The position numbers and the translations under genes were made by a program. A stretch of DNA of 64,000 nucleotides, from NCBI RefSeq assembly GCF_029625315.1, contig NZ_CP121110.1, positions 728,501 to 792,500 of the forward strand. The letters are read 5' to 3'. The notes beneath the pieces are model-generated. The model was given only the letters and a program-made list of their open reading frames with translations. It was not told where the DNA came from and did no database searches. Positions 48,801 to 52,424 of the stretch are shown one piece after another (the first letter of the stretch is position 1; each line of letters starts with the position of its first letter). This DNA is from Flavobacterium ginsengisoli. Lineage in GTDB: Bacteria; Bacteroidota; Bacteroidia; Flavobacteriales; Flavobacteriaceae.

Positions 48801-48830
48801 TGCAACGTTTTATGCATAATGAGCGTCTAA
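48801..48830 (+). promoter_or_regulatory. ECF-sigma-like promoter of ankyrin gene 1
   Basis: TGCAAC (48801-48806), 17-nt spacer, CGTCTAA (48824-48830), ending 45 nt before the ATG. The same two boxes with the same spacer and the same distance to the start codon occur before ankyrin gene 2. The AAC...CGTC pattern is typical of ECF-type sigma factors; assignment is inference. Confidence 0.6.
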
Positions 48831-48874
48831 CAAGTAATCATCACAATCATTAATCATTAAACAAGTAATCAATC

Positions 48875-49254
48875 ATGAAAAAGACAGTAATCATTCTAGG
48901 GACGGCTCTTGCCATATTTGTAAATTTTACAGCAGCTTCCAATCATAAGCTGGCAGTTAAAAATCAAATTGAAATTTCAGATTATTTCTCATCGCCTTTG
49001 CACATAGCTGTGTGTAATGGAGATGTTGAAACCGTAAAAAAAGTATTGAATATGGTGCGGATGTAAATAAAATTGTGCGAAATATGACGCCTTTAATGCT
49101 TGCGACTCGATTTAATAATGTAGAAATTGTGAAAATCTTACTAGCAAATGGAGCTAAACCTTCCATAGAAAACGAACATGGATTACGAGCATTAGATTAT
49201 GCAAGATATTCAAAATCAACAGAGGCTGAAGCTGTTTTAAAAGGGCTGAAGTAA
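48875..49254 (+). pseudogene. Ankyrin-repeat exported protein 1, frameshifted
   Basis: First of three paralogues. Signal peptide MKKTVIILGTALAIFVNFTAAS, then two to three ankyrin repeats (SPLHIAVCNGDVETVKKVL, then YGADVNKIVRNMTPLMLATR and FNNVEIVKILLANGAKPS in a second frame, and ENEHGLRALDYARYS). The first frame ends at 49066; one missing base near 49052 (expected GGAATATGG) restores the frame to a stop at 49252-49254, total about 126 residues. Repaired, it aligns along its full length with the genes at 50664 and 52044. Confidence 0.82.
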
Positions 49255-49295
49255 AAAATTTTAACGCAAGAAAAGAAAAGCATTATCTTTATTTT

Positions 49296-49352
49296 GATAA
49301 TATTGGTCAACGTATTGAATAAAACGTATCAGATTGCCTTTCTTCAAAGTGA
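49296..49352 (+). repeat. Duplicated, diverged fragment of the purC 3' end
   Basis: 57 nt aligned without gaps to 48538-48594 (last 19 codons of purC): 49 of 57 bases match. The reading is NIGQRIE-stop-NVSDCLSSK, so it is a dead copy (CAA-CGT-ATT conserved, a codon AAA changed to the stop TAA). It lies between ankyrin gene 1 and the GH26 gene. Confidence 0.85.
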
Positions 49353-49360
49353 TACTTTTG
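49334..49360 (+). promoter_or_regulatory. Possible promoter for the GH26 gene
   Basis: TTG (49334-49336), 16-nt spacer and TACTTTTG (49353-49360), 24 nt before the ATG. The -7 box fits the TAnnTTTG pattern; the spacer is one nt shorter than usual. Confidence 0.45.
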
Positions 49361-49383
49361 GGTTTAAACTAACTATTTAAGCC

Positions 49384-50514
49384 ATGAAACTTATTACTAA
49401 AAAAAATGCCCTATTAGTTTGTCTTACTGTAGGGCATTTTCTTTTTGCGCAAATAGATAAAAATGCGACAAAAGAAACTAAAAACTTATATCAAAATCTA
49501 AAAATCATTTCAAAAAATCATATTCTTTTTGGACATCAGCATGCTCTTGAATATGGACATGGTTGGAGTAATGAGCCTAATCGTTCAGATGTAAAGTCGG
49601 TTACGGGGTCGCATCCGGCTGTTGTTGGTATAGATTTTAGCGATTTTTCGGGTCGTTCTAAAGAACAGATTGAAAAAACAAAAGAGGTTTTGCGAAAAAA
49701 TGTAATCGATACTTATGAAAGAGGCGGAATTACAACAGTCTCTTGGCATTTTAATAATCCAGCGTCTGATGGCGGATTTTACTGGAAAGACGGAATCTCA
49801 ACCGCTTCAATGTCTTTAATTAAACCTGGTGGCTCTAATAACGAACAGTATAAAGAAATTCTAAAAACTATTGCCGATTTTGCCCATTCTGTAAAAGCAA
49901 AGGACGGAAAGCTTTCTCCAATGATTTTTAGGCCTTTTCATGAATTTGATGGCGATTGGTTTTGGTGGGGAAAATCACATACTTCTAGAGAAGATTTTAT
50001 TGCCGTTTGGCAGTTTACGATTTCTTATCTGAGAGATACTTTAGGAGTTCACAATTTTATTTATGCTTTTTCTCCCGATAATCGATTTAATTCTGAATCA
50101 GAATATTTAGAGCGTTATCCAGGCGATGAATTCGTTGATATTTTGGGCATGGATGATTATGCCGATTTTGGACGCGATGGAAAATATGATTTAGAAGCTG
50201 GTTTGAAAAAATTAAAAATATTTTCTGATTTGGCTGTAAAAAGGAAAAAAGTAGTCGCGTTTACAGAAACTGGTTTAGAATCAATTCCTAATGAAAATTG
50301 GTGGACAGAAGTTTTACTTAAAACTTTAAAATCTGAAAATCTGCAATTGGCTTACGTTTTAGTTTGGCGAAATGACACAACAAGTCCAACTCACTATTAT
50401 GCGCCTTTTCCTGAACAAATTAGCGAAACCGATTTTATAAAATTTTATAACGATCCTTTTACATTATTTGAAAAGGATTTGAAGGATATATACAGCAAGA
50501 AGTTTAAGATATAA
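49384..50514 (+). CDS. Exported glycoside hydrolase family 26 (beta-mannanase-like)
   Basis: Secreted endo-beta-1,4-mannanase-type enzyme, 376 residues with a signal peptide ending FLFAQ. The TIM-barrel motifs are GHQHALEYGHGW, SWHFNNP, the acid/base motif RPFHEFDGDWFWWG (Glu187) and the nucleophile motif AFTETGLE (Glu295). These two glutamates are the retaining GH26 catalytic pair. No T9SS tail is seen, so it is probably periplasmic. Placed between ankyrin genes 1 and 2, with its own terminator; the surrounding genes are not carbohydrate genes. Confidence 0.92.
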   Translation: MKLITKKNALLVCLTVGHFLFAQIDKNATKETKNLYQNLKIISKNHILFGHQHALEYGHGWSNEPNRSDVKSVTGSHPAVVGIDFSDFSGRSKEQIEKTKEVLRKNVIDTYERGGITTVSWHFNNPASDGGFYWKDGISTASMSLIKPGGSNNEQYKEILKTIADFAHSVKAKDGKLSPMIFRPFHEFDGDWFWWGKSHTSREDFIAVWQFTISYLRDTLGVHNFIYAFSPDNRFNSESEYLERYPGDEFVDILGMDDYADFGRDGKYDLEAGLKKLKIFSDLAVKRKKVVAFTETGLESIPNENWWTEVLLKTLKSENLQLAYVLVWRNDTTSPTHYYAPFPEQISETDFIKFYNDPFTLFEKDLKDIYSKKFKI

Positions 50515-50535
50515 TCTATTTTTGCATCAGTAAAG

Positions 50536-50571
50536 AAACGCAATTTTTGGTCTGCCTAAATTGCGTTTTTT
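50536..50571 (+). terminator. Rho-independent terminator after the GH26 gene
   Basis: Perfect 11-bp stem (AAACGCAATTT / AAATTGCGTTT) with an 11-nt loop and a T run, 22 nt past the stop. Confidence 0.9.
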
Positions 50572-50589
50572 TATTTTTCTCTTTATTCC

Positions 50590-50619
50590 TGCAACCTAAT
50601 GCTCTTTTTAGTCGTCTAA
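50590..50619 (+). promoter_or_regulatory. ECF-sigma-like promoter of ankyrin gene 2
   Basis: TGCAAC (50590-50595), 17-nt spacer, CGTCTAA (50613-50619), ending 45 nt before the ATG. The spacer sequences differ from the copy before ankyrin gene 1 while both boxes are identical, which argues for selection on the boxes. Confidence 0.62.
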
Positions 50620-50663
50620 ATAGAAAATCATCATCATCATCAATCATTTAACAAACAATCATT

Positions 50664-51065
50664 ATGAAAAAAGCAGTAATTATTTTAGGGCTAATTTTCA
50701 TTTTTACAAATGAAATAAAAGCATCAAATTGTGAACTGAAAATTGAAAATCAAGCTAAATTTTCAATTTATTCGAACTCTCCATTTCATCTAGCAATTAG
50801 TAAAGGCGATATCGAAACGGTTAAGAGATTTATAAAGTATGGAGCCAATATCAATAAAATAGTAAATAACATGACTCCCTTGATGGTGGCCGCACGATTT
50901 AATCAAGTAGAGATTATTAAAATTTTACTCGAAAATGGGGCAGAACCTTCACTTGAAAATGAAAGAGGTTATACCGCTTTGCATTTCGCTGAGTTTGGAA
51001 AATCTGCAGAATCGATTGCTATTTTGAATAAAGCGAATATGGAAAAGAGTAGAAAACATAAATGA
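50664..51065 (+). CDS. Ankyrin-repeat exported protein 2
   Basis: A 133-residue protein with a signal sequence (MKKAVIILGLIFIFTNEIKAS) and about three ankyrin repeats (SPFHLAISKGDIETVKRFIKYGANIN, MTPLMVAARFNQVEIIKILLENGAEP, RGYTALHFAEFGKSAESIAIL) plus a basic tail. Paralogue of the genes at 48875 and 52044. Ankyrin repeats bind other proteins; the partner is unknown. The leader between promoter and ATG is rich in ATCATC/AATCA, as in the other copies. Confidence 0.85.
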   Translation: MKKAVIILGLIFIFTNEIKASNCELKIENQAKFSIYSNSPFHLAISKGDIETVKRFIKYGANINKIVNNMTPLMVAARFNQVEIIKILLENGAEPSLENERGYTALHFAEFGKSAESIAILNKANMEKSRKHK

Positions 51066-51072
51066 AATGAGA

Positions 51073-51106
51073 AAGAGCAATTCATTTATTTGAATTGCTC
51101 TTTTTT
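51073..51106. terminator. Bidirectional hairpin between ankyrin gene 2 and the SRPBCC gene
   Basis: 12-bp perfect stem (AAGAGCAATTCA / TGAATTGCTCTT) with a 6-nt loop and T run, located between two convergent genes. Confidence 0.88.
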
Positions 51107-51125
51107 CTTTTAAAACTCTGAAAAA

Positions 51126-51662
51126 TTATTCCATTATATCTTTAAGATTTTCTAGACCTTTTTGCAGATCATTTCCTATCAATTGGTCCATTTTTAGCAT
51201 TGGAAGCATAATGTTTGTTGGATATGGAATTACACCGCTAATTCCCCATCTGACTTTTGTTTGATTATCTGAAATAGGTTCAGTAGACATAAATCCTACA
51301 GCATTATCTTCCATAGGCTTCTTAAAACGGAGCGCAAATTCGAGACGTCTGTTTTCTGTTATTTTTGTAATCTCTTCTTCACCAACACCAACTTCTTTCA
51401 CATTGCTTTCCCAAGAAGAAATAGAACCTACAGCACCATCAGCTCCTTTATAATGAACTTTCATTTTTGGATCCATATTAGCCCAAACGCTAAATTCATT
51501 TTGATTTTTTAATGATCTGACATATTTGAAGATACTATCAGCTGGTTTGTTAATTGTAATTTCTCTTTTTACCGAATATTCTTTTGGCATAAAATAAGCC
51601 GCAATTAAGACAATTGAAATAAATAGAATTAGAATGACTAGTAATCTTTTAATAAAAATCAT
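51126..51662 (-). CDS. SRPBCC-family protein, membrane-anchored
   Basis: A 178-residue protein starting at 51662 (MIFIKRLLVILILFISIVLIA), with an N-terminal membrane helix and then a START/polyketide-cyclase-like domain: INKPADSIFKYVRSLKNQNEFSVWANMDPKMKVHYKG is the canonical opening of that fold. A 24-residue N-terminal extension back to 51734 would place Lys/Asn/Thr-rich sequence before the helix and is unlikely. It is a general small-molecule-binding fold; the ligand is unknown. Confidence 0.82.
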   Translation of the reverse strand: MIFIKRLLVILILFISIVLIAAYFMPKEYSVKREITINKPADSIFKYVRSLKNQNEFSVWANMDPKMKVHYKGADGAVGSISSWESNVKEVGVGEEEITKITENRRLEFALRFKKPMEDNAVGFMSTEPISDNQTKVRWGISGVIPYPTNIMLPMLKMDQLIGNDLQKGLENLKDIME

Positions 51663-52043
51663 GGTTTTTGTTTTAAGGTTAGTAGTTTTTGAATTGTTTT
51701 TTTTCTTCTTAATAGAAGTTATAGGGCTTTGCAACTATACTTGTATGTTTTTGATTTTTAATCTCATAGTAAATTTAAAAAAATAATTGTGAGTTTTGAA
51801 ATGATACCAATTTTAAAAAGATCAAAAAAAATAAGATTTATTGTAACATTTTTGTTTTTATGTAGTCTATTATAGTAAAACCTGTAATTTGGTAACGTTT
51901 GGGTTCTTTAATTATCGTTTTATTAAGTAAGTGTTAAGAATTGGTTAAAACATGGTACTTTGTAATGCATAATACGATAAAATAAATTACTTTTACATCA
52001 GAATTAAAATCATCATCAATCAATTAATAAACAATCAATCATT
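51663..52043. other. Intergenic region upstream of ankyrin gene 3
   Basis: About 380 nt of AT-rich DNA between the divergent SRPBCC and ankyrin 3 genes. The final ~50 nt carry the ATCATCAATCAATTA-type leader shared by the ankyrin genes. A clear copy of the TGCAAC-N17-CGTCTAA promoter is not present; the best remnants are GGTAAC and a following TCGTTTT, at about 51893-51930. No coding sequence is visible. Confidence 0.6.
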
Positions 52044-52424
52044 ATGAAAAAATCAGTTATTTATTTAGGACTAGCCTTGGTAACATTTGGAAATGTAGCT
52101 ATGGCTTCAAATGAAGTTTCAACTGCTAAAAATCCAGTTGAATTAGTAGAATATGCGACAAACCCTTTAAATGTTGCAATTAGTAAAGGGGATATCGTAG
52201 CTGTGCAAAAATTTATTGAGTACGGTGCAGATGTAAATTTAATGTCTGAAGAGCTTACGCCTTTAATGACTGCTGCACGTTACAACAAGTACGAAATCAT
52301 TAAAGTTTTATTGGCAAATGGTGCAAAACCAAGTACAAAAAACGAAAGTGGATTTACTGCATTAAGATATGCAGAATTATCAAATGCTTCAGAATCAATT
52401 GCGCTTTTGAAAGATTTGAAATAA
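52044..52424 (+). CDS. Ankyrin-repeat exported protein 3
   Basis: A 126-residue protein, signal peptide MKKSVIYLGLALVTFGNVAMAS followed by about three ankyrin repeats (NPLNVAISKGDIVAVQKFIEYGADVN, LTPLMTAARYNKYEIIKVLLANGAKP, SGFTALRYAELSNASESIALL). Best preserved member of the trio and ends like the repaired gene 1. Co-located paralogues suggest local duplication. Function unknown; small exported ankyrin proteins of this kind are sometimes stress-related. Confidence 0.87.
   Translation: MKKSVIYLGLALVTFGNVAMASNEVSTAKNPVELVEYATNPLNVAISKGDIVAVQKFIEYGADVNLMSEELTPLMTAARYNKYEIIKVLLANGAKPSTKNESGFTALRYAELSNASESIALLKDLK

Follow-up and report, generated by a model that had tools for sequence, protein, structure and literature searches.

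The window analysed here is a stretch of 64 kb that carries three ankyrin genes (Table 1), which an earlier note had described, from the sequence alone, as encoding three small exported proteins of about 126-133 residues. This holds for genes 2 and 3, whose products of 133 and 126 aa match Pfam ankyrin models above the cut-off and have, by eye, signal-peptide-like N-termini, but not for gene 1, which in this assembly is a frame of 63 codons with its remainder in another frame. The same gene is unbroken in a second genome of the species (G088), as is its 126-aa counterpart in Flavobacterium sp. IB48 (L193). Since the stretch encoding the ECF sigma factor and its putative anti-sigma protein (L068:4414-5563, minus strand; see below) is also broken in this assembly and intact in G088, a sequence or assembly error is the likely cause of the break in gene 1; together, the breaks at 48875-49254 and in the sigma factor stretch suggest assembly indel errors or strain-level decay. 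Genes 1 and 2 are 50-61% identical, and a glycoside hydrolase family 26 gene (Pfam; 49384-50514) lies between them.

Table 1 Positions of the genes, promoters and upstream elements discussed in the text.
Feature	Position	Strand	Basis or remark
ECF-type promoter of ankyrin gene 1, TGCAAC-17 nt-CGTCTA	48801..48829	+	Shuffle test; matrix score 23.6
Ankyrin gene 1, 5' part, a 63-codon frame in this assembly	48875..49066	+	ORF reading
Ankyrin gene 1, 3' part, in another frame	49033..49254	+	49033-49242 is 61% identical to gene 2, residues 53-122; stop at 49252-49254
ECF-type promoter of ankyrin gene 2, TGCAAC-17 nt-CGTCTA	50590..50618	+	Shuffle test; matrix score 23.6
Ankyrin gene 2, exported-looking ankyrin-repeat protein, 133 aa	50664..51065	+	ORF; Pfam Ank_2, E 5e-31
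Conserved block upstream of gene 3, GTACTTTGTAATGCATAATAC, distinct from the ECF boxes	51955..51975	+	Imperfect palindrome; also at many of the loci L193-L260
Candidate gene 3 promoter (inference), TTACTTTTAC, resembling the sigma-A -7 box TAnnTTTG	51987..51996	+	Consensus from PMC9723704
Ankyrin gene 3, older (core) copy, 126 aa, without ECF boxes	52044..52424	+	ORF; Pfam Ank_2, E 2e-24; tree; no matrix site
Leaders of the ATCATCAATCA type (examples)	50623-50663 and 52009-52043 (window); L068:4250-4290		
ECF sigma gene	G000:C1:2616014-2616562	-	About 1.84 Mb from the ankyrin genes

Upstream regions of the three ankyrin genes

Genes 1 and 2 are preceded by identical boxes, TGCAAC-N17-CGTCTAA, at 48801-48830 and 50590-50619, where dinucleotide shuffles of the window produce a mean of 0.01 such matches. 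The 17-nt spacers of the two promoters are unrelated in sequence, as the earlier note had seen, and in each the ATG follows CGTCTA after 45 nt; the distance of 45 nt given in that note is thus right when counted from CGTCTA, whereas it is 44 nt from CGTCTAA. ECF promoters in general carry AAC in the -35 and CGT in the -10 element, with a spacer of 16-17 nt, and these features are present at genes 1 and 2. Gene 3 does lack the boxes, as had been proposed: with a matrix whose training set consisted solely of 59 distinct ECF-gene promoters, its best score is -7.0, compared with +23.6 for genes 1 and 2.

What lies upstream of gene 3 is of a different kind. The block GTACTTTGTAATGCATAATAC could, as an imperfect palindrome, possibly be an operator; the genome holds no second copy of it within three mismatches and no other site within one mismatch of a looser inverted-repeat pattern, and as a known operator it was set aside because, with no second copy, no regulon was found. 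Downstream of it, TTACTTTTAC may be the promoter of gene 3, by its resemblance to TAnnTTTG, the sigma-A box described in F. psychrophilum (PMC9723704). The two elements recur before last ankyrin copies, the block as GTAC[CT][TG][TG]G[TC] at 65 of 77 loci and the sigma-A-like box as TTA[TC][ACT]TTT[AG] at 59 of 77, both being raw counts without a chance control.

The leader rich in ATCATC/AATCA is indeed common to all three genes, with 5, 7 and 7 ATCA in the 60 nt before genes 1, 2 and 3, and among the 48 ORFs of at least 120 codons in the window only genes 2 and 3 have three or more ATCA in the leader. It is not, however, a mark of this family. ATCATCAATCA has 28 sites in the genome, compared with 1 for the reversed control; after merging, 11 of 24 are no more than 50 nt ahead of a plausible ORF of at least 110 codons, among them the ECF operon's barrel gene as well as unrelated genes; another 5 fall within ORFs, 2 are doubtful, and the other 6 are not near any ORF. 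Preceding several unrelated genes, the leader was rejected as the sign of a regulon; it looks like a general 5'-UTR element, perhaps with a translational role.

An ECF sigma gene with the same promoter

In the genome of 5.41 Mb (a single contig), TGCAAC-N17-CGTCTA occurs at four sites, and its reversed control at one. Three of the four stand before ankyrin gene 1, ankyrin gene 2 and an ECF sigma gene, each 45 nt from the ATG, and the fourth is inside an ORF of 366 codons, so that the genome search suggested by the earlier note places the exact motif above chance level. The relaxed form TGCAAC-N16-18-CGTC yields 15 sites (control, 7), with the same three genes as the only close promoters; 11 sites are inside ORFs and one lies 146 nt before an ORF of 71 codons. 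When up to two mismatches are allowed there are 191 sites versus 183 in the reversed control, showing that the signal is confined to the tight motif. Sites with one mismatch (n=14) were discarded as additional members, being, except for that of the ECF gene, inside ORFs of at least 80 codons or without an ATG-initiated ORF of at least 80 codons within 150 nt; one of them (L014) coincides with the end of a coding sequence on the opposite strand that, by eye, is thioredoxin-like. Sites with two mismatches, the first 13 of which were inspected individually, were dismissed on the count given above.

The ECF protein has sigma regions 2 and 4 (PF04542 and PF08281, both over the Pfam cut-off) and 186 aa in the copy L071; in this assembly its frame continues into the next gene. 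The operon has the same order in seven relatives: the ECF gene is overlapped by an ORF of 236-259 aa, in which one hydrophobic segment can be seen by eye, and this ORF is followed by that of a beta-barrel-looking protein. The second ORF, a putative anti-sigma protein, had no Pfam family in the one copy scanned, and among the 120 matches listed for each a few of its homologues are named 'Anti-sigma factor' in their sources, and some of those of the barrel ORF are named porin family, PorT family or outer membrane protein beta-barrel. At L176 the barrel is an ORF separate from the anti-sigma-like protein, and the third operon gene of the present genome (531 aa) has no Pfam match.

This ECF gene is one of 24 with a match to sigma region 2 in the genome, 23 of them over the Pfam cut-off. 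The promoters of ankyrin genes 1 and 2 might therefore be read mainly by another ECF factor of overlapping specificity, or by several, given that a looser xxAAC-N16-18-CGTC precedes four of the 24 genes (the present one included) and that the CGT-box motif SM6 of F. psychrophilum may, in the warning of its authors, serve several ECF factors (PMC9723704). We regard this as unlikely: TGCAAC-N16-18-CGTC is found within 200 nt upstream of only one of the 24, and orthologues of that gene mostly keep the motif within the genus.

Conservation of the motif in Flavobacterium

The ECF factor is present in 121 of 150 Flavobacterium genomes, in 125 places (E 1e-40), and among the matches listed at least 71 of these places show the exact motif no more than 250 nt upstream. 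Examination of 52 of the remaining 54, bringing the upstream regions to 123, gave 12 with the exact motif, 5 with TGCAAC..CGTC, 27 with T[GA]CAAC..CGTCT, 4 looser and 4 with none, one of the last being cut by a contig end. The exact motif is thus present in 83/123 and an exact or near one in 115/123, near meaning TGCAAC..CGTC or T[GA]CAAC..CGTCT, patterns that were picked after the sequences had been seen; by these patterns 8/123 are without even a near motif. Letter shuffles of the 52 upstream regions gave 0/2600 matches. Since the motif or a close variant has been kept in 115 of 123 cases, the ECF gene appears to be autoregulated.

The ankyrin family occurs in 67 of the 150 genomes. Among the matches listed, at least 17 ankyrin sites in 14 genomes carry the exact motif, and all 14 genomes have the ECF gene; an ankyrin gene of G103 also has the exact motif, and those of G008 and G015 have a form with a 16-nt spacer. 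Compared with 67 genomes that hold the family, these numbers indicate that ECF control of ankyrin genes would be confined to part of the genus. Within 78 named loci, 46 of which have two or more copies, we compared 54 upstream copies with 78 last copies, and TGCAAC-N16-18-CGTC stands before 37/54 of the former versus 1/78 of the latter. Three further upstream copies had miscalled starts and, with an MKK start, show the exact motif at 45 nt, the commonest distance to the ATG at ankyrin copies, which raises the count to 40/54. The matrix, at the 1% shuffle level, finds sites at 44/54 upstream versus 5/78 last copies (39/54 versus 4/78 at the 0.1% level), and at 47/54 upstream copies once three starts among the ten misses had been mended.

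A chance match could be argued from the fact that one of the four exact genomic sites is inside an ORF, that the reversed control also has one, and that sites with up to two mismatches are hardly commoner than in the control. It is nonetheless scarcely credible, being already contradicted by the conservation upstream of the ECF genes in other species and by the matrix results on ankyrin copies, as well as by the expectation of 0.01 in the window and by three sites at an identical distance from the ATG.

In a tree of the ankyrin proteins (133 rows and few columns, with many forks unresolved), 50 of 55 upstream copies, gene 2 of the window included, form one clade together with L267 (support 100/98), the other five lying elsewhere, suggesting that one duplication explains most upstream copies. 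Boxes are retained in subclades that are parted by long branches, so the ECF promoter seems to have outlived considerable divergence of the duplicated proteins. The ankyrin genes being tandem paralogues, the shared boxes might instead be leftovers of a recent tandem duplication with no regulatory role. This is very unlikely, as genes 1 and 2 are so divergent, their spacers are unrelated, the boxes persist over those long branches and the same boxes precede an unrelated sigma gene. Four single copies in distant loci (L261-L263 and L266) carry a TGTAAC variant, and 5/78 last copies score as sites, so that either the duplicates may have acquired ECF control or the core copy may have lost it.

The exact motif is not limited to these two classes of gene: the matches listed for the genus include at least 150 exact sites, of which ECF genes account for 71, ankyrin genes for 17 and other places for 62. 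Nineteen of the 62, picked by the appearance of their spacers, were inspected; at 9 of them the ATG of an ORF follows 22-61 nt after CGTC, 7 are inside ORFs and 3 are neither. The gene downstream is a DUF5686 gene with CarbopepD_reg_2 (Pfam) at L179 and resembles it by eye at L173-L175, L178 and L185; it is a DUF2807 gene (Pfam) followed by a DUF5686 gene at L186, aspartyl-protease-like (Pfam) at L176 and a weak autotransporter-barrel match, below the cut-off, at L177. All nine have, by eye, signal-peptide-like N-termini, which fits an envelope response, and the motif before DUF5686-like, DUF2807, aspartyl-protease-like and barrel-like genes may possibly delimit a wider envelope regulon in other Flavobacterium. 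In the present genome DUF5686 was ruled out as a member, the closest DUF5686 gene having no motif, and this difference implies that the regulon varies between species.

Proposed regulation and known systems

Our preferred reading, which we consider probable, is that a single autoregulated Flavobacterium ECF factor under anti-sigma control has ankyrin genes 1 and 2 in its regulon, and that gene 3 is read otherwise. The earlier idea of two paralogues co-regulated by an ECF factor, with a third that has diverged, is thereby strengthened, since the two share their promoter with one ECF gene, which keeps it across the genus, and a likely sigma factor can be named. By sequence comparison, the argument draws on boxes identical in sequence, spacing and distance to the ATG, on their conservation in the genus and absence at gene 3, and on a duplication that appears to have retained its promoter in most descendants. 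From these features we infer that the factor encoded at 2616014-2616562 reads all the sites.

In the mechanism that we propose, the ECF factor would be held by a membrane anti-sigma protein, encoded just downstream of it and before the gene of an outer-membrane beta-barrel, and would be released by an envelope signal. The freed factor would then read TGCAAC-N17-CGTCTA before its own operon and before the duplicated genes, whose small ankyrin proteins would be exported to the periplasm, while gene 3, the older copy, would be read from another, probably housekeeping, promoter. The duplicates would add an inducible supply of a protein that may act as a scaffold or protector of an envelope protein. 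On this view, an ordinary gene was duplicated and the copies probably came to be governed by a stress switch of the envelope type. A more speculative extension, which we offer tentatively and think rather doubtful, is a two-layer periplasmic ankyrin system, in which a housekeeping copy is made all the time and the ECF-inducible duplicates, one or two in number, would bind an envelope protein and protect or scaffold it during stress, possibly feeding back on the ECF, anti-sigma and barrel sensor.

The preferred reading would tie an uncharacterised, exported-looking ankyrin family to a specific sigma factor that is found in 121 of the 150 Flavobacterium genomes surveyed. The precise promoter consensus makes the ECF regulon directly testable, and the ankyrin genes clearly illustrate how duplicated genes can diverge in their regulation, a course that can be traced in dozens of species.

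Among known systems, the AnkB-type periplasmic ankyrin proteins of Pseudomonas are linked to catalase. They resemble the present proteins as small exported ankyrin proteins with a stress tie, but no catalase gene was recognised by eye beside the Flavobacterium ankyrin genes among the ORFs at 43.9-58.0 kb of the window.

Three Bacteroidota ECF systems are also comparable. In Bacteroides thetaiotaomicron, Dma/ECF21 likewise combines an ECF factor, an anti-sigma function and a beta-barrel part, but there the C-terminal beta-barrel is a domain of Dma itself (PMC13088901), whereas the Flavobacterium operon has one gene for the anti-sigma-like protein and another for the barrel. PorXY-SigP of Porphyromonas gingivalis also places envelope genes under an ECF sigma factor; the motif suggested for SigP in that report is unlike TGCAAC/CGTCTA, and its targets are T9SS genes (PMC4800418).

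The third is SM6 of F. psychrophilum, of the same genus, a CGT-box ECF motif with induction at low nutrient levels (PMC9723704). It shares the conserved CGT -10 box and an ECF/anti-sigma pair, THC0290_1774/1773, which is among the SM6 genes and is hinted by the authors to regulate them (PMC9723704). The table of selected SM6 genes lists parts of the T9SS (GldN, PorU), band-7 proteins, RmlB and others, and the word 'ankyrin' is absent from the main text (PMC9723704). In comparison with these SM6 targets (gldN, porU, band-7), the 15 relaxed-motif sites of the present genome include three close promoters, those of ankyrin genes 1 and 2 and of the ECF gene. The earlier view that no such layout had been described needs qualifying, as a CGT-box ECF motif is already on record in Flavobacterium (PMC9723704); for ankyrin genes under an ECF factor in this genus, the open literature searched gave no account among the matches listed. 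Autoregulation combined with a CGT -10 box is already known for ECF regulons, and ankyrin paralogues as their targets did not come up in the literature searched.
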